Below are positions 2,564-12,389 of a stretch of 36,303 bases of DNA, in pieces (position 1 is the first letter of the stretch; every line of letters begins with the position of its first letter). The notes beneath the pieces were generated by a model that was not told the origin of the DNA, did not search any database, and worked only from the letters and a program-made list of their open reading frames with translations. Made by a program: the position numbers and the translations under genes. Source of the stretch: a virus; the IMG/VR virus record IMGVR_UViG_3300044609_000380, positions 1 to 36,303 of that record; one strand, given 5' to 3'.

Positions 2564-2814
2564 GGGCGTTTCTTTTGAATCTTCAATCCAGCTTTTTTGC
2601 ACAAACCACAGATCACGCTCGGAGCGCGTCCAAACTTCTTGGACAGTTCTTTGTATGAAAACGTGGGGTTGTCTTTTACGAACCGCTCGATGGCCGCCTT
2701 CTCTTTCTCGGTCATCGGGCTCCAACCTTCCTTAGTTTTCTCGACTTTAACGGTTTTGGTGATCGTGGGCTGTGGACCCATCAGGCGTTCAATAGCTTCA
2801 CGGGAGAGTTTCAT
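2560..2814 (-). CDS. small basic helix-turn-helix-like protein, 84 aa
   Basis: The product begins MKLSREAIERL at an ATG (2812-2814) and overlaps the last 17 bases of the exonuclease gene. The same frame is open upstream to 3120, but that region is the exonuclease gene in its true frame. The protein is Lys-rich. Its C-terminal half ('NPTFSYKELSKKFGRAPSVI' then 'CGLCKKAGLKIQKK') has the spacing of a helix-turn-helix, with a closing C-x2-C. A role in DNA binding or regulation is likely, but no specific family is recognised. It ends in an ATGA overlap with the 82-aa gene. Confidence 0.78.
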   Translation of the reverse strand: MKLSREAIERLMGPQPTITKTVKVEKTKEGWSPMTEKEKAAIERFVKDNPTFSYKELSKKFGRAPSVICGLCKKAGLKIQKKRP

Positions 2815-3592
2815 CTTTGAGAATCCAGGTGGGTGATTGAATGATTTGAATGGAGTCGCCGTTGTAACCCGGCCAGCTGTCGGTGTCCTCGCAGACCATC
2901 CACTGGCGAATCCACGACTGCCATGTGGTCGATCCCTTGTCCAAGGATTCGGTGTCCATCTGGTAAACAGCGACCGCGTAGGGCGCCTGGTCTTCGACGC
3001 AAATCCACTGCCATGCGCGGGTCTCGCCAGTGATATCCCGGTAGAGGTCCCGGTAGTACGCCGCCTGCACGTCGTAGCGCAGCTGGCCGATCTGCCGGCG
3101 GAACCCAGCCTTGCTAGCATCCCGGCATTTCTTCAGGTCTACGATTACCGGGGTCGCATCTGGAAGCCAGTCGATCAGGCCCTTCCGGTCGCAGCCATCG
3201 AACTCACCGAACATCCCGACCTGGGCCTTACCCGGCTCGGCCAGCAGGCGGCCTGCAACTGGATGTTCACGGACAGACTTAACCATGCGCTCTACAGTCT
3301 CGATCGCGTCCTGCTTGAACACGGTGACCCGGCGGTACTCCTGGTCCTCTCGCCAGGCGCGTGCTTCCTTGGTTCTGAAGTCGTCGTAGGGAGATGTGGT
3401 CCAAAGGTACGGCGTCCCGAGGACCTTGTGGTCTAAGAGACTACCGATATTCATGGCCTCCGAGGTTTCCCGCTCTTCCTCAAAGCCTACCAGAGCGTGC
3501 GCTGGTGACCGGCTGAACGCCTTGAGGCTGGAGATGTTGATCGCCGGGTGACTGCGATAGGTGTTTACGTCGATGGGGTGGACTAACTTCAC
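2798..3592 (-). CDS. PD-(D/E)XK exonuclease, RecE/YqaJ-like, 264 aa
   Basis: This is the exonuclease partner of the annealing protein encoded just upstream. Visible motifs are 'GSLLDHKVLG' (His55), Asp141 in 'GLIDW', 'VIVDLKK' (Asp152, Lys154: the D-x-K core of the PD-(D/E)XK fold) and 'QLRYDVQAAYY' (Gln170, Tyr173: the Q-x-x-x-Y motif of RecB/RecE/YqaJ nucleases). Such enzymes resect double-stranded ends to give single strands onto which RecT-type proteins load. The start is GTG (3590-3592), overlapping the TGA of the RecT-like gene (GTGA), so the two are translationally coupled. Length is normal for phage versions of this family (often annotated DUF3799/PDDEXK). Function is inferred from motifs and context. 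Confidence 0.88.
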   Translation of the reverse strand: MKLVHPIDVNTYRSHPAINISSLKAFSRSPAHALVGFEEERETSEAMNIGSLLDHKVLGTPYLWTTSPYDDFRTKEARAWREDQEYRRVTVFKQDAIETVERMVKSVREHPVAGRLLAEPGKAQVGMFGEFDGCDRKGLIDWLPDATPVIVDLKKCRDASKAGFRRQIGQLRYDVQAAYYRDLYRDITGETRAWQWICVEDQAPYAVAVYQMDTESLDKGSTTWQSWIRQWMVCEDTDSWPGYNGDSIQIIQSPTWILKDETLP

Positions 3593-4575
3593 AGCGCACC
3601 TCCCGCCTTCACCACTGCACGGCCGATACCGCGCTTATTCCGGATGATCCAGTTGCAGATATCAGGAGGCAGGTCTGCCACCGTGGGATAGGCTTCAGGG
3701 TTTTCCCACCACTTCAGGTCTATGACCAGCTTCACCAGCTGCTCGTAGGTGATCCCAGCGGATGCTAGCGTGCCTTCGACTGTTTCAAGTTCAGGTTCCG
3801 CTGTGGGAACGGGAGCGACCGGGGCGGGTGCGGTCTCAACGATCTCCGGTGTGGGTTCAGGAGCGGCGGGAGCGGGCGGCTCCACGATTGCGATAGCCTC
3901 GGCCTCCTTCTTCTTGCGCGGCTTGGGCTCAACAGGTGCAGGAGGCGTGGGTGTAACGTCCATGATGGATGAACTCACGGTGACCGACTGGACCACCTGC
4001 TGGGCCGCAGGGGTGTCCTGGACCTCTTCCGAGGTGTGCATACCCAGTGCGATCTCGGGCGCGTAGGTGCGGCACCAGAAGGCGCCGGCCCGGTACTGAA
4101 GCATCTGCTCCGGCATGGTCTTCCATTTAGAGCCAGACTTGCCGTACCAACCCTCGACCTTGGCCATGTTGATGTTCACGAGGGCGCCAACGAGTTCCAG
4201 GTTGGAGTCGCGCTCGACTGCGAAGGCGCGGCAGCCCCACTCATCTGTCCCCTCTTTTCCAACCCAGCGGAAACGCATCGGAGAGAAGCGGCCGCAGCTG
4301 TTGACGGTAGCAATCAGGAACGAAGCAGACCACGTGGGCTTGCCGTGGATAGGAACCATGGACTGCATGACAGCCATGACCGAGGCGCCGATGCGTTGGG
4401 ATAACTCCAACGCGATGATGCAGTTTCCGAGGTTGGCCTCGCCCCGGTAGGCGTCGGGAACGAGGGTGCTGGACGCAAGGGCCTTGGCCATGCGTTGGAC
4501 TGAGACGAACGCGTTCTCCGAAGAGAAGGCGCTGAGAGGTTGTGCTTGCTGTGTTGCGACTTGTAGGTTGCTCAT
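3589..4575 (-). CDS. recT: RecT-family single-strand annealing protein, 328 aa
   Basis: Residues 1-205 look like a RecT-family annealing protein: 'NLGNCIIALELSQRIGASVM', 'AVMQSMVPIHGKPTWSASFL', 'IATVNSCGRF', 'KWKTMPEQMLQYRAGAFWCR' and 'YAPEIALGM'. These proteins coat single-stranded DNA and anneal homologous strands during phage recombination and repair. Residues 215-275 form a Pro/Ala/Glu/Val-rich linker. A C-terminal segment ('YEQLVKLVIDLKWWEN' ...) ends in a basic patch and may bind a partner. The gene leads the early operon and is directly followed by its exonuclease, which is the classic RecE/RecT pair. The ATG at 4573-4575 has no clear Shine-Dalgarno. Confidence 0.9.
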   Translation of the reverse strand: MSNLQVATQQAQPLSAFSSENAFVSVQRMAKALASSTLVPDAYRGEANLGNCIIALELSQRIGASVMAVMQSMVPIHGKPTWSASFLIATVNSCGRFSPMRFRWVGKEGTDEWGCRAFAVERDSNLELVGALVNINMAKVEGWYGKSGSKWKTMPEQMLQYRAGAFWCRTYAPEIALGMHTSEEVQDTPAAQQVVQSVTVSSSIMDVTPTPPAPVEPKPRKKKEAEAIAIVEPPAPAAPEPTPEIVETAPAPVAPVPTAEPELETVEGTLASAGITYEQLVKLVIDLKWWENPEAYPTVADLPPDICNWIIRNKRGIGRAVVKAGGAL

Positions 4576-4619: not shown

Positions 4620-7600
4620 TCAGAACGAATTTTTCAGATTTGTTCGGGCATTTCGACGAATGCGATCTGCATTCTTGTCGATAAAGTCGGATGCCTGGGC
4701 AGGCGGGAGAGCTAGCAGCCGCTCCCTATTCTGCTCGATAAACTTGCGGTAACCCTGACCAACGGCCTGCTGGTAGGAGTATTTCTCTTCGCGTGTGAGT
4801 TCTCGACGCGTGCCGTTTTCGTTGACCTTGACCGTGATTGCCGGCACCGGCATGAAGACGCCTTTGCTGGCGAGTGAACCCAGGGTGCTCCACGCAGTAT
4901 CATCCTCACGTTCTTTGGCCCATCGACTCCACGGATACCGTTCAACTTTGACTGGTTCGCCTAGCACGTTGAGGATCGGACCTGGCCCGATCTCACGACG
5001 GCCGAACGGCACTTGCTGAAGGAAGTATTCGTAGCCGAGGTTGCCAGCCTCAGTCTTAAAGATCGACGGGTCAGACCAGGCATCGACCTCCTTGAGAATG
5101 TTGGGCACCAAAGACCCTGCCAGACGTGAAACGTAGCGCGGGAATGATTTCTCGATAAACTCGTCGGTGTCGTACTTGTAGGCGTTAGCAAAGCCTAGAA
5201 GCTCGGTTAGACCAGAGATCGCAGTTGAGTCCTTGACGATGAACATTCCAGCTGCGGCTCCATCCAAGACCTTGTCTACAATATTTTCCTGAGACCACTT
5301 ATCCGGGGAGAACAACTGGCGATCGCGAAGTTCACCGATGGTTGCTAGCACTCCACCAAACCCCATCTGGCGATAGGACACATAGGTATTTCCAAACCGG
5401 ATGGAATAGGGTTGTCGGCCTTCTGATAGCAGCTGCTTTCGCTTGTTGGGGTCAAGGGACTTAAACGACCCTGTTATGTCCATGTTGCGATCCTCTTCCT
5501 TGTCATCGTCACCGAGGAACAGGGCACCAGCAAAGATTCCAAGTGCCGTTCCAAACGCTGCCTTGGCTAATATCAGGTCACGTCGCGACTCGGAGAACTT
5601 CAGGCCGTATTCGCCTTCTGACCTTCCAGGTGCGGATTGATACCAACGATACAGCGCGACTGGTAAAGCGAAGTTAAGGATCTCGTTAGCGGAGTTGGCC
5701 GCAAATCGTAGGAAGTTCGTTCCAGACAGGACCTTGTAGAGCGTTTTGCCCTGAGCTGCTTGATCCAGACCACGGTACAGACTTCCAAGTAACCCCTGGG
5801 GTATTTCGGTAAACGTGGCCATCTCGCGAATTTCTTTTGATGTCAGTAGGATTTCCACGGGCAAATTCTCCTGAATGATTTCGCGGGTGCGCTTGTTGAC
5901 CAGTTCTGGACGGGTGCCTTCAGCGATCGCACGAGCACGGGCCACAGCGACCACATCTGGCGACGGAGTGAGATACTGGCGGGCAACCTCGGTTCCGTAC
6001 AATTTACGTAGCGCGTATGCCTTTGCACTCGAATCGGACATCAACGCATTTATATGATCGAGCGCGGTAATAAGCCGGCTGACGTATTTGAACTGACTGA
6101 TCCCCTTGGCAAACAGATTGCGCGACTCGCCCAGTCCTTCGAGTGCGCTGCCCGGCTGGTCAGGGTTGAAGTTTGCAGACCTAAAAAGCTCACCCTTCCA
6201 GAGTATTGGCCAGAAATCTTGGATACCTTCGGCGAGTCCCTTGAGTGAAGAGTAGGCTATAAAACCAGCATCCTTCTTGGCCATGGTAGCAAACATGGCT
6301 GTGTTGAGGAATCCGTTAAATACGTTTGCCCCGTTGTCTACCTGCGTGCGGAGGCCTGATAGCACCGCCGCGTACCAGTAATCACGCAGTGCATCCGAGA
6401 ATTTGACGCCGCCCTCTCGGGCCATGAGGCGGAACATCTGCTGGATGATCTCGTTTCGATTGACTCCGCTTTGAGCCTGCGCCTTCTGTGCTAGGTCAGT
6501 GATCTTGCGGGCGGTGATTCCGTTAAGCTCAGCGACACCAAACTCCGGCGCCACTGCGTCTCGAAATGCCTGATTCCACAGCAGGAACGTATCAGGCCCG
6601 TCTTGAATCGAGAAACTGCCCGGGGTAGCCCTGGCAATGTTGGCGTACTTCAGGATGCGAGGCAGAGAGCGGAAGAGCTTCTCGCGAACATCGGGTTTGA
6701 CGTTCGGCAGCGGCACCTTCTTCTGGAACTCAGCCCTGAAGATTTGATTCCGCTTCGTTTCCCAAGCGTTGGTCAGGAGGTTAGTGATCTCCGCAATGCC
6801 AGCAGGGCTTAGGTTACGCAGACGCGGGTCAGCTAGGATCACCTGAAGCATCTTCTGCCGCACTGAACCTTGAGTGTCCAGAGCCTTAGTAAGGATGTCC
6901 TGCCACTTGATTTCGATGGGAGGACCTTCGGGCTCGCCGGGGACCTGTTTGATCTTGCGGAACTCGCGGGCAAACACAGCATCCGCCTTCTTCATGGCCT
7001 CGCGAATCTGGTTCACAGCCTCGCGACCTGATTCAGTAAGCCATTTACGCACCTGCTCAGACTCAATCTTGGAAAACGGAATCAACTCATCCTGACGCTT
7101 GCGAATCAGGTTGCGATAGATCATCGCCGGCTGAGCCCACCAGAAGCGTTCTTGAGAAAGATTACGAGCAGCCATCGCCTTAGCGGTAACAGCACCAAGC
7201 GATTTCTTTGAATCTGCCAGTCGCTTCTCAAGGTTTAACGCTCGCATTGTTTCGACGTCACCCTTGGCTCGGGCGATGTCCAACTGGTTGCGCTGGATGA
7301 TTTCTCCAAGGATGTATTCCTTGAATGCGTTATCAATGTCTGCGGTGAGAACAAACTGAAAGGCGCGTTCCAGATTGCCTTTGTAGAAATCAACCCACTT
7401 TCTTGCCTCGGATGCCCAGTTTTCATCGGTATCCGTGCTAATGTCTCCAAGAAACAAACCGCGAGAAGGAACACGCACATCCGGCGACGGAGGTTGCGGA
7501 CGCTCAGGCGTGCCAGCGGGAATCTCCTGGTTCGGGAAAGCCTTGATGTACTCCTCGAAGTTAGCGGCAGTCTCCGCTTCGTTGCTCAGCTGGACGTGGG

Positions 7601-10600
7601 ACTTGATGTAGTCCATGCCAGCATTACGGGCGGCCACCCAGGACTTGGTAGCCTGGTAGATCCGGAGTGCGATCTTCGAGGCTTGATAAACCACGAAGTT
7701 CGACAATCCGGTTATGGCCTCGAATACCTTGCCCTTGGGATCGGTAGCGGCAATGACCTTCTTAAGGATGGCTTCGACCCGGTCGGGGCGTTGATTGCGC
7801 TCAGCCTCAGCCTCAGCGGCTCGTTGTTTCCGCAGCTGGACTAGGCGGCGGGCTGCTCGCTCTTCGGCATTTCTGAGAGTTTGCGAAGCAGTCGCAGCTG
7901 CTTGGCTTGCAGGGCCTGCTCGTTGCGCTCCTCGAAGCTCAGCACTTCGTCGAGCAATCTGCTCAACTTGGTTGCCGTACCCAGCTTCGGCGAGGATGCG
8001 TCGATATTCTCCATCGGCAAGAAGCGTAGCGAAATCTGGAGTGCCGGCAATAGCTTCCTCGGTAAGGTCTCCAGCCCTTAGAATCTCAACAGCGTTACGA
8101 GTTTCTCCGCGTCGATCCTGAAGTTCGTACAGCGTCTTGGCCCAACTCCATACCGTTTCCTGAACCTCTGCTGGGGTCCATTGGTCGCCGGTTAGCTCGG
8201 TGAGATACTCCGCTGTGGCCCTTACCTTTGCCGACATAGCAAGGTAGCCCGTGCCTTTGCCGGGATCTGTGCCAGTAGCGTTCAGACTTCCAGCAAACAT
8301 GGCCTGATCGACCAGCGCAAAGTTTGCCATCCACGCGTCGTTAGTCACCTCGTTGACTACGCCACGCAGGTTCAACATGAATGAGTTGACCTTAGGCCCA
8401 CTAAGAGTGATGGAGGTCGGGTCTTCAGAACTCAGTGCCCGAACCGAGTTGTTGATCCAGGCGTCAAGAACGCTTTGCTCTCCTTTGTTTCCCTGCACTG
8501 AACGGCCCATGACCGAGACGATGGCAGCGCGATCGGTTGGGCGGCCGGCAAGGTTCCAATTTTTCCAGACGTTAAGCGCGTTAATCAGGTTGTTTTCAAC
8601 GCTGGTTTGAGGGCTCAGACCTGCTAGCAATGCAGCAAATCGAGGAGCATCGACTCCAAAAACATCGATTAACGCCTCGGCCGATTTTCGATACCAGCCT
8701 CGTTTCACTGCTCCACCTAGGGCAGCAGCAGCAAACTCAGAGACAGATGGCAGTTGATCAAACAGGTCAACGAATCGTTTTTTGGTATCCGACCGCAGCT
8801 TGCGGCGTTCCTCTGGAATAAGGTGACGAGCCTTCTGCTTGTATCCGCGCAGTTTTCCGTCATCGATTATTTCAGATACGGATCGTCCTAAAACTAGGTC
8901 AGTTTCAAACTGCTCACGCACCGCGTCCAGATTGACACGCGCAGCCTGCTTCTCGTTGAGGTTGGTGCGAATGTATTCGATTGCGGCATCGATTGCTTGA
9001 GTGACCGCCTTGCCAGCGCGTAAGGCGTTTTGAGCGGTAATCAGTGCGCCGTTCCAGATGAGTGCCGGGATTCCAAGCACAGCATCGAAAGTTCCGCCGG
9101 TATCAATCTTGAGGTTTTCCAGCTTGGAGATTATTTGGGCTACCTTACTGATTGGCGCCACCTTCGGAGCCACCTTTTCAACCCTCGCCTCATCAGCCAA
9201 CTCCTGTTCCCGCTCTTGAATGGCCGTATCCCGGGCCTCCTCAACGCGTTCTAGCAGCTGCCCGACCAGCTCATCTACCTCAGTATCGCGGCCTTCATCA
9301 TCCAACTCAGAGTCATCAATGACGCCGCTAGCCTCCAGCTTACGCGCCATGGCTTTAACCTGGCGCTTGGTCATGTCGGAGCCTTCATCCTCCAACTTCT
9401 GCTTGGCTTGGCCAATGGGGCCGACGTCGATCTCTTGCTCAGCTTGAGCCAGGCGGGCTTCCTCGGCGGCTTGAAGTTCGGCTTCGGTGGGTTCGGCGAC
9501 TACAGGTTCGGCGGGTGCAGGTGCTAGCTTCTTCTCTAATTCCTGAAGCCGCTCTTCATTGAGGCGACCCAAACGGCCGCGTTTCTGCTTGGTGATACGA
9601 AGCTCGTTGAGTTCGGCCTCCTCCGAGATTGTAGGTGCAGGCGCAAGACGAACGCCACGTTTTGCCGCCCGCATTTCAGCCTGCTTTTCCGCGACCGATT
9701 TACTGACTGCTGGCGCCATGTATCCCTGCGGCACAGACTGAGGGTACTGCTTACGAAGAAATTCAATCCGCGCTTCCGGCAGTCGATTCAGCGTTTCGAC
9801 CTTTAGTTGCTTTCCAGACTCAGCAGCATTCCGAATCGCCTGCCAATGTTCGAGATTCGAGTCTTCACGTGAAAACTGTTCGCGTACCTCGGCTTGGGTA
9901 GCTTTGTTGTCCCGGGCAATTTCTTTGACCCGTGCGTCGTAGTATTGCTGCTCGGTGAGTTCATCATCGGGCTTGGAACCAATAGGAGCGGGCTTAGGCG
10001 CAGGCCTCGGCGTTTCGCCAGCCACGGCCTCCTGCTTGTCGCGCAGTATAAACCCTTCGTCTGAAGGGTATCCTGTAACCTGCGATTTCTCTTGCAGCAG
10101 AAACTGGTCGGTTTCTTGAAGGCGCCCAGAGCTGGTGCGGAGAACCAACCTCTGTCCTGGTGCCAGCTTTTTGATCTCATACAACCCTTTGCCGACAGCT
10201 GTGGCCTTGGCCTTGAGCTTCCGGAGAAGGCTGTTTATTCGTGCTGGAGTGTACTCGGGGGCGGGAGTCGGAGTAGGCGCTACTGGAGTAGGGGCAGGGG
10301 TTACCGGGGCCGCAACCGGCGCCGACACTGGAGTCGCCGTAGCCTCCACCTCCGGCATCGTAATCGTCACCGAAGGCACAGTCAGTACCGCCGGCTTCTG
10401 TGAAGTTCCACCCTTCGTCTGCCTTGATAGCTGTTTGATTTGGGCGCGAACCTGAAGGCCGTGTTTACGCACTTCCTCTGGAGTCATTCCAGATGCCTCA
10501 ACTGCCCAGTTCAAGTAATCCGCGTCGTTCTTAGACGGTTTCGGCTGCGTCACAATGTACGCAGCTAGATCAAAATCGCTGTCAAATGTCGGAACGTAGG

Positions 10601-12389
10601 TATCTAGCGCGAAGCTGTAGCGCGGCTTAGCACCGGCAAGATTCTTGGGGAGCTTCGTGGATGTGGTGACCTCGACCACCGGAGCTGGCGCTACCCGTGC
10701 CTTTACTTGCCGTACTTCTTGCGGGGTGACTTGGACTTCGGCCCCGCTGCTTTCGGCAGGCCGCCCTCCTTGATCCACTTGTCGCAGTCCCACTTCGATT
10801 GGGGGTTGCTGCTCTTCTGCGCGTAGCACGCCTTCATTTGGGCCTTGTTCTTGAACGGCACTGGATATGGTAGGTTGAGTTTGTATTGCAGCAGGCTCAA
10901 CCCCACCCAATCGGGCGCGGTAACCTGCAAGAGTGATAGCACCCTCTTCGCTCAGCAGGCCGGCATCTTCGGCCGTGAGTAACTGGTCGAGTTCATCCTG
11001 CTCGTCGGGAGCTAGGCCGGTTTCGGAATCGACAGTTGCGGCGGGGGCGGCGGCGGGGGTAGGCGCGGGGGTCGGAGTTACGACGGCCTGCGGTTCTGGT
11101 GCAGGTGCAACCACCGGGGCGGGCACAGGGGCCACCTCTTCGGCCGGCATAGGAATCCCAGCTTCCTGAGACGTCCGCAGGACATCTTCAGCTGTGATCT
11201 CGGGCTCAATGTCGATCGGGCCGGTGGGTTGAGGACCGTCTTCAAGACCTGCAACCGTTGAGCTAGCACGCGGCAGCGGGTTTGTCGGATCACCTCCAAG
11301 TGCTTCGTTTGCAGCACCAGCTAATTTAGCATTGCGGCTTGAACCAACGAGACCGCCAACGATGCCTCCAGATAGGGAACCAACGAAGCCCGCTTGTGCA
11401 ACGCCATCAAGCCATCCGCGTTCGGGATCGTAGACCGCAGCTGCGGCAATGTTTCCTCCAAGCTGCTCAGCTGATTCTTGGACGCCCTCAGTGGCCAGCG
11501 CCTCGACAGCGCCCCGGACACGTTCAGCACCTGTGGCTCCAAGGAATTTACTTTGGAACTTTGCAGACTTAGGCACCAAACTTTCGGCCAGTCGAGTTCC
11601 GATGCCTCCAATCTGGCCGGTGACGAAACGCCTTGCCACCTTGGGTGCAACACCCAACAAACCCTCGGTAGCGGCGCCAATCGGAGCGGCTGTGATAAAT
11701 GCCAAGTTTTTCGTCTGCTCGCGGCGATCTTGAAGATCCGCAGCGACATCGTACTGCCGGTTTGCCAGAGCCTCGGAAATACGACGGTTGATCGTGGCAT
11801 CAGCGTCTTCAGCTGCTGATTCACCTGATTGGAGGCCGTAAGATACAGCAGCCCCAAGAGGAGCGGCTGGACCAGCAATCAACGCAGCTGGAAGTGTAGC
11901 AACCGTACTTCCAATGCCGCCCATAATTTGAGCGGGTATGGACTCTCGCACGCCAGGGAGACCCGGGTAGGTTTCTTTTCCAAACTCTTGAATGGATTGA
12001 CCGGCGCGGTAAAGAGGCTCTTGCTCCAGTGGGACTTCGGCAGTCTGCTCAATCTTCCTTCCGGTGTAAGGATTGATTGTTGGAGGAGGAAAAAACGTAG
12101 CGGCCCTAGCTGCTCCCTTGAGTGTTACGCCGGTTCCCTCAAGCGCCATGCGCGGCAACTCGGAGAGTGTGTTAAGCGCGGTCTCGACGGCTCCATACTC
12201 GCCCGCACGGTACTTAGCCGCCTCCAGCTGCTCAGTCTCGCCGGCCATTTCTTGCTGCCGCCGCTGGATTAGGTTTTGCTGGATCTGCTTTCGATTCTGC
12301 TTAACGAAGTCGAATGCTTGTTCTTGGGTGTAATCTTCAGGGAATACTACGGTTCCAAGCTCCGTTCCAAAATCGACTTCGATGGGCAT
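4620..12389 (-). CDS. giant polyvalent/internal virion protein, 2589 aa
   Basis: This one frame takes a fifth of the window. Residues 1-38 ('GTVVFPEDYTQEQAFDFV') resemble the short N-terminal domain common on large phage ejected proteins. Residues about 110-350 are Gly/Ala-rich with membrane-like stretches. Several Pro/Ala/Thr linkers follow (about 410-470, 500-560, 700-730, 930-990). Residues about 1210-1420 form a conserved domain ('FAALLAGLSPQTSVENN', 'GRSVQGNKGEQSVLDAW', 'SGPKVNSFMLNLRG', 'TNDAWMANF'). Helical duplicated modules lie around 1090-1130 and 1545-1590. Near 2270-2295 is a hydrophobic segment ('AAFGTALGIFAGALFLG'), then 'YSIRFGNTYVSYRQMGFGG', which resembles the C-terminal domain (LPD38-like) of large polyvalent proteins. 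Such proteins travel in the capsid and enter the host. Gene order after two internal proteins fits that. Enzymatic activity is not proven. Confidence 0.85.
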   Translation of the reverse strand: MPIEVDFGTELGTVVFPEDYTQEQAFDFVKQNRKQIQQNLIQRRQQEMAGETEQLEAAKYRAGEYGAVETALNTLSELPRMALEGTGVTLKGAARAATFFPPPTINPYTGRKIEQTAEVPLEQEPLYRAGQSIQEFGKETYPGLPGVRESIPAQIMGGIGSTVATLPAALIAGPAAPLGAAVSYGLQSGESAAEDADATINRRISEALANRQYDVAADLQDRREQTKNLAFITAAPIGAATEGLLGVAPKVARRFVTGQIGGIGTRLAESLVPKSAKFQSKFLGATGAERVRGAVEALATEGVQESAEQLGGNIAAAAVYDPERGWLDGVAQAGFVGSLSGGIVGGLVGSSRNAKLAGAANEALGGDPTNPLPRASSTVAGLEDGPQPTGPIDIEPEITAEDVLRTSQEAGIPMPAEEVAPVPAPVVAPAPEPQAVVTPTPAPTPAAAPAATVDSETGLAPDEQDELDQLLTAEDAGLLSEEGAITLAGYRARLGGVEPAAIQTQPTISSAVQEQGPNEGVLRAEEQQPPIEVGLRQVDQGGRPAESSGAEVQVTPQEVRQVKARVAPAPVVEVTTSTKLPKNLAGAKPRYSFALDTYVPTFDSDFDLAAYIVTQPKPSKNDADYLNWAVEASGMTPEEVRKHGLQVRAQIKQLSRQTKGGTSQKPAVLTVPSVTITMPEVEATATPVSAPVAAPVTPAPTPVAPTPTPAPEYTPARINSLLRKLKAKATAVGKGLYEIKKLAPGQRLVLRTSSGRLQETDQFLLQEKSQVTGYPSDEGFILRDKQEAVAGETPRPAPKPAPIGSKPDDELTEQQYYDARVKEIARDNKATQAEVREQFSREDSNLEHWQAIRNAAESGKQLKVETLNRLPEARIEFLRKQYPQSVPQGYMAPAVSKSVAEKQAEMRAAKRGVRLAPAPTISEEAELNELRITKQKRGRLGRLNEERLQELEKKLAPAPAEPVVAEPTEAELQAAEEARLAQAEQEIDVGPIGQAKQKLEDEGSDMTKRQVKAMARKLEASGVIDDSELDDEGRDTEVDELVGQLLERVEEARDTAIQEREQELADEARVEKVAPKVAPISKVAQIISKLENLKIDTGGTFDAVLGIPALIWNGALITAQNALRAGKAVTQAIDAAIEYIRTNLNEKQAARVNLDAVREQFETDLVLGRSVSEIIDDGKLRGYKQKARHLIPEERRKLRSDTKKRFVDLFDQLPSVSEFAAAALGGAVKRGWYRKSAEALIDVFGVDAPRFAALLAGLSPQTSVENNLINALNVWKNWNLAGRPTDRAAIVSVMGRSVQGNKGEQSVLDAWINNSVRALSSEDPTSITLSGPKVNSFMLNLRGVVNEVTNDAWMANFALVDQAMFAGSLNATGTDPGKGTGYLAMSAKVRATAEYLTELTGDQWTPAEVQETVWSWAKTLYELQDRRGETRNAVEILRAGDLTEEAIAGTPDFATLLADGEYRRILAEAGYGNQVEQIARRSAELRGAQRAGPASQAAATASQTLRNAEERAARRLVQLRKQRAAEAEAERNQRPDRVEAILKKVIAATDPKGKVFEAITGLSNFVVYQASKIALRIYQATKSWVAARNAGMDYIKSHVQLSNEAETAANFEEYIKAFPNQEIPAGTPERPQPPSPDVRVPSRGLFLGDISTDTDENWASEARKWVDFYKGNLERAFQFVLTADIDNAFKEYILGEIIQRNQLDIARAKGDVETMRALNLEKRLADSKKSLGAVTAKAMAARNLSQERFWWAQPAMIYRNLIRKRQDELIPFSKIESEQVRKWLTESGREAVNQIREAMKKADAVFAREFRKIKQVPGEPEGPPIEIKWQDILTKALDTQGSVRQKMLQVILADPRLRNLSPAGIAEITNLLTNAWETKRNQIFRAEFQKKVPLPNVKPDVREKLFRSLPRILKYANIARATPGSFSIQDGPDTFLLWNQAFRDAVAPEFGVAELNGITARKITDLAQKAQAQSGVNRNEIIQQMFRLMAREGGVKFSDALRDYWYAAVLSGLRTQVDNGANVFNGFLNTAMFATMAKKDAGFIAYSSLKGLAEGIQDFWPILWKGELFRSANFNPDQPGSALEGLGESRNLFAKGISQFKYVSRLITALDHINALMSDSSAKAYALRKLYGTEVARQYLTPSPDVVAVARARAIAEGTRPELVNKRTREIIQENLPVEILLTSKEIREMATFTEIPQGLLGSLYRGLDQAAQGKTLYKVLSGTNFLRFAANSANEILNFALPVALYRWYQSAPGRSEGEYGLKFSESRRDLILAKAAFGTALGIFAGALFLGDDDKEEDRNMDITGSFKSLDPNKRKQLLSEGRQPYSIRFGNTYVSYRQMGFGGVLATIGELRDRQLFSPDKWSQENIVDKVLDGAAAGMFIVKDSTAISGLTELLGFANAYKYDTDEFIEKSFPRYVSRLAGSLVPNILKEVDAWSDPSIFKTEAGNLGYEYFLQQVPFGRREIGPGPILNVLGEPVKVERYPWSRWAKEREDDTAWSTLGSLASKGVFMPVPAITVKVNENGTRRELTREEKYSYQQAVGQGYRKFIEQNRERLLALPPAQASDFIDKNADRIRRNARTNLKNSF
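10703..10861 (-). CDS. 52-codon gene-like frame embedded inside the giant gene
   Basis: In a different minus-strand frame, within a Gln/Pro/Val-rich linker of the giant gene, a frame starting at GTG (10859-10861) encodes 'MPFKNKAQMKACYAQK' ... 'SKWDCDKWIKEGGLPK' and a basic tail ending 'SPRKKYGK', with a stop at 10703-10705. P-F-K-x-K-A-Q-x-x-A-C-Y-A ... W-D-C-x-x-W is a pattern I recognise from small stand-alone phage proteins of unknown function. The giant frame here is low-complexity. It is therefore either a true overlapping gene or a former gene that was absorbed, frameshifted, into the linker. No clear Shine-Dalgarno precedes the GTG. Confidence 0.5.
   Translation of the reverse strand: MPFKNKAQMKACYAQKSSNPQSKWDCDKWIKEGGLPKAAGPKSKSPRKKYGK

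Follow-up and report, generated by a model that had tools for sequence, protein, structure and literature searches.

A small gene probably nested out of frame in a giant viral gene, from a phage family shared by non-homologous carriers

The viral DNA analysed here, positions 1 to 36,303 of the IMG/VR record IMGVR_UViG_3300044609_000380 (36,303 nucleotides; referred to as the window), carries on its minus strand a giant, polyvalent-type gene of 2589 amino acids and, inside it on the same strand, a second frame of 52 codons (GTG at 10861 to TAA at 10703; Table 1). Every codon of the giant carrier begins one base ahead of a codon of the small frame (+1 register), and the start point of the small frame corresponds to carrier codon 510, within a low-complexity linker that is rich in Gln, Glu, Pro, and Val across the overlap (SSAVQEQGPNEGVLRAEEQQPPIEVGLRQVDQGG). 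The predicted peptide shows the pattern P-F-K-x-K-A-Q, A-C-Y-A, and W-D-C-x-x-W with a basic tail, while an alternative upstream GTG at 10942 would give a product of 79 amino acids. A preceding inspection of the letters without database searches (referred to as the sequence-only reading) had reported the 52-codon frame, its residue pattern with the basic tail, and a Gln/Pro/Val-rich giant frame at this place, and all three were present as described. The stop-free run of 82 codons that contains the small frame is unremarkable alone; judging from the sequence comparisons below, the feature beyond chance is the conservation of the small frame across relatives. On this basis, we consider it highly probable (approximately 0.9) that the small frame represents a genuine gene within the giant one, presumably translated by internal initiation.

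Relatives of the window peptide were found in phages and viral contigs. Using tblastn, 70 phage records were matched at E <= 10, 69 of these with 60-80% identity; these were MW202828 (E 2e-5), a weakly matching Vibrio phage, and 68 Flavobacterium elemo phages that are nearly identical to each other (E 8e-5). Both MT497078 (an elemo phage) and MW202828 had the match out of frame (+1), inside giants of >3200 and 3859 codons, respectively, and the annotation over the small frame in the elemo and MW202828 records was the giant only. Scans of viral contigs yielded 231 confirmed relatives of the window peptide and, with a profile, at least 238; the best 80 were analysed in each case. A plasmid search with the peptide returned only seven records (E 6-9), which were judged to be chance. 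No match for the peptide was found in PHROGs (0 families at E <= 10), Pfam, or NCBIfam, and the other members of its type (KACYA-type) shared its lack of a match to phrog_1375 in the PHROGs profile search. This family (function unknown, 70 positions) matched the nested copies L217 (E 4.9e-5) and L201 (E 1.4e-3), the free-standing L336 (E 2.5e-4), and the N-terminus of L323 (E 5.9e-3). Among the viral-contig candidates, the window peptide matched the free-standing L027 (tblastn, E 8e-10); L201 matched gp48 of Streptomyces phage FlowerPower (E 5e-5), and the window row of profile A3 recovered itself and every other type of small peptide. By these matches, the window peptide is assigned to a PFK[SN]xxQ family of small phage proteins (phrog_1375 and its relatives). 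The supposition of the sequence-only reading that it was a familiar small phage protein was essentially correct, its nested and free relatives matching phrog_1375 even though the window peptide did not; the profile search that it had proposed gave no family-library match, and the homologues came from phage records and viral contigs.

The nested peptides were highly diverse (KACYA-type, QRRYLW-type (MPFKSEKQRRYLWANHPEIAQRW...), KRQMIAM-type, and others), with only M1, P2, F3, and Q8 invariant in a 26-row alignment. One of them (L214:2789-2944) was seemingly chimeric, with a KRQMIAM-type body and a tail resembling the KACYA members in scaffold carriers, suggesting recombination inside the nested gene. 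In Pfam, the L194-type peptide matched Choline_sulf_C (E 1.2e-4) with 22.3 bits against a cut-off of 27, a match rejected as compositional or motif likeness.

Nesting in a single register was the rule. Among 158 loci with the open reading frame (ORF), the window included, 155 were nested in a longer ORF, all in +1; the exceptions were the free-standing L027 and L028, and L096, in which the contig ends inside. The carrier was closed at ~400 codons in 82 of the 158, and the remaining carriers were mostly giants. A second sample was drawn with the conserved part of the ~400-amino acid carrier after the nested stop (alignment A2) as a query, so that loci were chosen without the overlap sequence: it gave at least 590 relatives, and when the best 80 loci were analysed for an ATG with an MP[FIVL][KQV][SNH] start at the N-terminal side of the carrier, 68 of the 80 carriers contained a nested ORF, 68/68 in +1 (63 MPF and 5 MPI starts). 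The nested copies of records G004 and G006 were intact ORFs with MPI starts. Ten loci were obtained with the first 280 residues of the window giant, six of them nested; three others (L241, L244, and L245) ran off after 302-520 codons. A scan for QRRYLW-type peptides (80 loci returned) gave 76 new loci, 71 nested in +1 and five free or fused, and 11 loci were confirmed in bacterial genome records, six nested in +1 and five not nested. One nested bacterial copy (L331:4001-4174) was from Paraburkholderia dinghuensis DHOA04 (NZ_RQIS01000007.1), in an open giant frame spanning 2261 codons or more, and another (L338:4001-4147) from a Sulfuritalea metagenome-assembled genome (MAG), in a giant of 1746 codons; P. 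dinghuensis is a cultured bacterium, and the former is presumably a prophage.

The carriers were of at least two kinds. A homologue of the ~400-amino acid carrier in the elemo phage MT497071 (40% identity) was flanked by two structural genes (2442 and 1374 bases), whose order and size suggest portal and capsid, respectively, and the carrier is therefore described as scaffold-like; the carrier of L072 had no significant match in Pfam or PHROGs. Grouping of 228 nested loci by BLAST of the flanks assigned 163 to the scaffold class and 64 to the giant class, leaving L331 alone; by the sequence adjoining the nested gene there were 12 groups, 11 of them giants. The giants may be remotely related, LPD38 being common to L331 and L338 (L022 and L340 contained none). 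The pattern that the sequence-only reading had tied to polyvalent proteins is not confined to them: 163/228 of the grouped copies were in the scaffold-like gene.

Selection in the overlap was estimated from nearest-neighbour pairs within each family, in which each difference was scored as silent or non-silent in both frames and compared with an expectation computed over every possible change, with transitions given a weight of 2 and stops left out. Changes silent in the small frame were in excess in 6/6 sets, with p from 1.6e-6 to 5.6e-45 on the assumption of independent substitutions. For sets sampled by the carrier, the values were 51/69 (14.8 expected; p 1.7e-20) in the QRRYLW-type, 21/32 (7.0 expected) in the KRQMIAM-type, and 27/46 (8.0 expected; p 4e-10) in the KACYA-type; for those sampled by the small peptide, they were 115/180 (30.3 expected) for KACYA in scaffold carriers, 72/101 (17.2 expected) for KACYA in giants, and 19/33 (6.5 expected; p 1.6e-6) in the clade of the window. 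Changes silent in the carrier were below expectation in 6/6 sets (4 vs 9.7 in the window clade). Outside the overlap, the relationship was reversed: a carrier-silent excess was found in 7/7 segments and a +1-silent excess in 0/7. A chance ORF was rejected on the conservation of the small frame and this small-silent excess across relatives. These results show that the nested frame is under purifying selection as a protein in two non-homologous classes of carrier, and the two-frame comparison proposed by the sequence-only reading thus came out in favor of the small frame, including in the clade of the window.

The alternative that selection acts on the carrier frame as a linker motif (AVQEQSTDESVLRTEQPEVGLQEVGEGN), with the small frame as its shadow, is favored by a motif recognisable in both carrier classes and by a carrier frame uninterrupted in every nested copy. 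However, within the overlap the first codon position of the carrier was more variable than the third (0.705, 0.323, and 0.248 bits at positions 1-3 in giants; 0.627, 0.304, and 0.255 bits in scaffold carriers), the carrier amino acids were ~2-fold as variable as those of the small frame, families with other small peptides had very different carrier motifs, and the small protein exists alone, the carrier-like frame being interrupted by 2 to 12 stops in each of the free-standing or fused copies checked (9/9); this explanation is hardly credible. Carrier-wide codon-position entropy in the overlap (1.105, 0.984, and 1.037 at positions 1-3) was uninformative because different small families were mixed, and the within-family test was used instead. 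Within the overlap, the carrier frame apparently needs only to remain open. Accordingly, Phe3 was encoded by TTC in 60/61 and 123/123 distinct nested ORFs, at a site at which TTT followed by a Lys codon would create a carrier-frame stop, whereas carrier Phe codons downstream of the overlap were TTT 793 vs TTC 295, and Phe3 was TTT in 9/13 free-standing or fused copies. That only +1 nesting was found is explained in part by the conserved Met9-Lys10, which puts a stop into the other frame.

A start codon was present at the same place in 189/189 distinct nested ORFs (181 ATG and 8 GTG; a set gathered partly by the MP.. pattern), and a stop in the small frame was found within 10 codons upstream in 166 of the 189 (within five in 69). 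In 62 distinct scaffold leaders, A was found at -3 (84%), -6 (89%), -11 (94%), -12 (81%), and -13 (87%), compared with 40-54% by codon position further upstream, and giant leaders with ATG (n=34) showed a similar pattern. According to PMC6847099, adenines at -3, -6, -12, and -13 are positive initiation signals in Flavobacterium johnsoniae, a member of a phylum without Shine-Dalgarno (SD) sites. The A-rich leaders of the nested frames would fit such Bacteroidota-type signals. SD-like sites were found ahead of the nested ATG in L022 (AGGAGG), L338 (AAGGAG, six bases before the ATG), and L331 (GGGGAG). The 25-base leader in the window is devoid of G, as are only 0.1% of the places sampled in the giant gene; over -25 to +20, the start region was predicted to fold at -2.3 kcal/mol vs a mean of -9.5 kcal/mol, among the weakest 1.4% of such places. 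Since 5/25 picked genes of the window had an SD-like 4-mer, the phage seems independent of such sites.

These features also bear on a programmed +1 frameshift, by which a truncated giant or scaffold carrier would end in the PFKNK peptide, with the small frame as its tail. Frameshifting is possible in the window, in which 30 codons ahead of the GTG are free of stops in the small frame, and is in keeping with the single relative frame common to all nested copies found. The start codon in 189/189 nested ORFs, the small-frame stops shortly upstream of most of them, leaders that resemble initiation regions and in a few cases carry SD sites, and the same initial methionine in free-standing relatives argue against it and make it very improbable (no search was aimed at a slippery site). 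In the nested-gene explanation, a small basic protein of the P-F-K-[SN]-x-x-Q family would have a separate start codon within the giant gene, and the same mRNA would be read twice: internal initiation without an SD site would produce the small protein, and ribosomes in the giant frame would decode the overlap as a disordered linker.

Several observations weigh against this explanation. No SD-like 4-mer was found in 155/158 nested or free starts; the GTG in the window has neither an SD site nor an A-rich leader, and its unstructured leader is merely permissive for initiation. The sets sampled by the small peptide are biased towards conservation of the small frame. The small ORF was absent from 12/80 scaffold-like carriers (L159, L162, L170, L172, L181, L193, L200, L212, L218, L221, L229, and L236), in which the corresponding stretch was a different low-complexity sequence, so that the linker seems dispensable; L159 looks, by eye, like a decayed nested copy. 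No family match was found elsewhere in the records G001-G003 (30-43 kb), in which the scaffold-like gene lacks the ORF. The giant of L246 was legible to codon 776 and had no nested ORF, and L011 had a TAG at codon 24 of the small frame (6070-6072) with the giant frame open, which is either a natural break or a sequencing error. The giant frame kept with the small frame broken, which the sequence-only reading had named as a counter-indication, was therefore found in a minority of relatives only (12/80 scaffold-like carriers, L011, and L246). The GTG without an SD site, the stop in L011, and the absence from L246 would also suit a dead remnant in the clade of the window, namely, an untranslated captured gene kept through constraint on the carrier. 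This is no more probable than frameshifting, because carrier-only constraint predicts the reverse of the small-silent excess and carrier-silent deficit in that clade.

Table 1. Nested gene, its carrier, and associated features (window coordinates; loci are given for bacterial records).
Feature	Position	Strand	Basis or remark
Nested gene, 52 amino acids, GTG start/TAA stop	10703..10861	minus	+1 frame of giant gene; selection in window clade
GTG start codon	10859..10861	minus	GTG or ATG at equivalent site in relatives
TAA stop codon of nested gene	10703-10705	minus	
Leader of nested gene, 25 bases without G	10862..10886	minus	base composition and folding
Stop-free run, 82 codons, containing nested gene	10706..10951	minus	ORF reading
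Carrier, 2589-amino acid giant (polyvalent-type) gene	4620..12389	minus	ORF list
DUF7178/phrog_3842 region, giant residues 1230-1414	8148..8702	minus	downstream of nested gene
Nested copies in bacterial records	L331 (Paraburkholderia dinghuensis), L332, L333, L338, L340, L341		

Directly downstream of the giant gene in the window, exonuclease VIII-like and RecT-like genes were located at 2798-4575 on the minus strand.

The family also occurs outside carriers. Annotated free genes were FlowerPower gp48 and MW574966 28335-28454, and unannotated free ORFs were found in C75C1, P-RSP2, and S-CBS2; the five bacterial loci that are not nested also count among the free-standing relatives. Free-standing relatives start with the same methionine as nested ones. 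In L326:3001-4320 and L323:3001-3957, the module formed the N-terminus of a longer protein that starts at the stop of the portal (phrog_1216, E 5.7e-67) and of a head-and-packaging virion protein (phrog_3287), respectively, and is possibly a targeting module for virion proteins. The free-standing L027 was located downstream of the terminase large subunit, the MW574966 copy between a head-tail connector and a putative head protein, and FlowerPower gp48 immediately before a holin gene.

The distribution over carriers pointed to movement. When 26 records were searched with the family profile, a match was found in 20 and two copies in none. Nine giant-carrying records (G010-G017 and W01) also contained a scaffold-like gene, with the single small copy in the giant, and in six records (G018-G023) the small copy was in the scaffold-like gene; neither the window nor G009 had a scaffold-like match at E <= 1. 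The DNA of giant copies was 82-98% identical to that of the best scaffold partner (9-base bins, bases 0-80), and the leaders were 59% identical in the 9 bases before the start and 49% in the preceding 9, vs 29-34% beyond 18 bases, equal to background (0.33); after the stop, identity dropped to 29-37% within nine bases. In the pair L138 (giant) and L135 (scaffold), identity was 94% over 87 bases and 83% at third positions, vs 32% in the flank before -20 and 34% in that following the stop. The simplest reading of these comparisons is that the small gene was transferred between non-homologous carriers as a DNA unit comprising its own length and up to ~18 leader bases, because dual-coding constraint alone would not make silent positions agree. 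A peptide tree (185 nested members and 12 that were either free or fused) required 16 changes of carrier type, vs a shuffled mean of 56, a hint of more than one move between carriers from a tree of ~45 residues with poor support. The growth of polyvalent proteins by absorbing neighbouring genes, as envisaged by the sequence-only reading, is more than these data support, the DNA comparison pointing instead to a unit that travels between carriers; its two alternatives, a free-standing gene overprinted by the giant gene and two proteins from the same bases, hold together, since the family is also free-standing, the window copy is overprinted, and the small protein is selected.

A broader proposal, to which we give slightly less than an even chance, is that this is a portable nested gene, which spreads through unrelated structural genes by inserting into their unstructured linkers, always in the same relative frame. 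If so, its codon choice would shape the +1 complement into a stop-free disordered linker; insertion would be cheap for the carrier, and the gene with its leader would gain an abundant late mRNA; carrier and passenger would evolve as a dual-coding cassette that is passed on or lost.

AlphaFold models of moderate quality for the QRRYLW-type (mean pLDDT 75.9, three helices) and the window type (mean pLDDT 68.5, two helices) point to a short hairpin of helices and a loose tail of basic residues. Foldseek returned only uncharacterised proteins from viral models (best E 7.8e-3), and from the PDB no match below E 2.8 and no solved relative. As its function, we tentatively propose head assembly or DNA packaging, with the odds somewhat against it. 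The grounds are that in several phages free or fused forms adjoin a terminase, portal, or head gene, and that the gene holding many of the nested forms occupies the position expected of a scaffold gene; that gene location is the only functional clue, and that gp48 of FlowerPower precedes a holin gene, count against it. The latter arrangement would suit a part in lysis or in taking over the host, and the small basic proteins of phages often do act on the host. The positions of the other free and fused forms (L027, L326, L323, and MW574966), the structural carriers of nested forms, and the absence of an apparent signal or membrane helix on reading the small-protein sequence (no prediction was run) make lysis or host takeover the unlikelier role.

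Standard gene calls in the examined records overlook the nested gene, which provides a lead to an unstudied small protein kept by many phages, never in more than one copy in the records searched. With cultured Flavobacterium elemo phages available, comparative tests become feasible of how overlapping genes arise, spread, and disappear. In the open-access literature (titles and abstract openings; subscription journals and preprints lay outside), nothing describing such nesting was found, and exact peptide strings and phrog_1375 occurred in no paper searched. Nor did that literature yield a description of a single family that occurs free, as fusions, and, invariably in one frame, nested in non-homologous carriers, with DNA evidence of transfer.

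The PHROG entry of phrog_1375 is silent on nesting. The window giant is similar in size and layout to large polyvalent proteins with LPD38 (Pfam PF18857), such as the giants of L338 and L331, but has no LPD38 match, DUF7178 being its sole Pfam match. Nested genes are known from phages, where each is usually tied to a single, constant partner: in lambda Rz/Rz1 and in phiX174, a small gene is wholly within another on the same strand, in another frame, with internal initiation. The family described here differs from these in its non-homologous carriers, its free forms, and the apparent movement of its DNA. Overprinting, as described in the review PMC8227390, is the origin of a new protein in the second frame of an old gene. 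The likeness is that both frames of one stretch of DNA code; the difference is that here the small frame, in view of its free-standing relatives, is probably older and independent, with the carrier linker overlaid on it.

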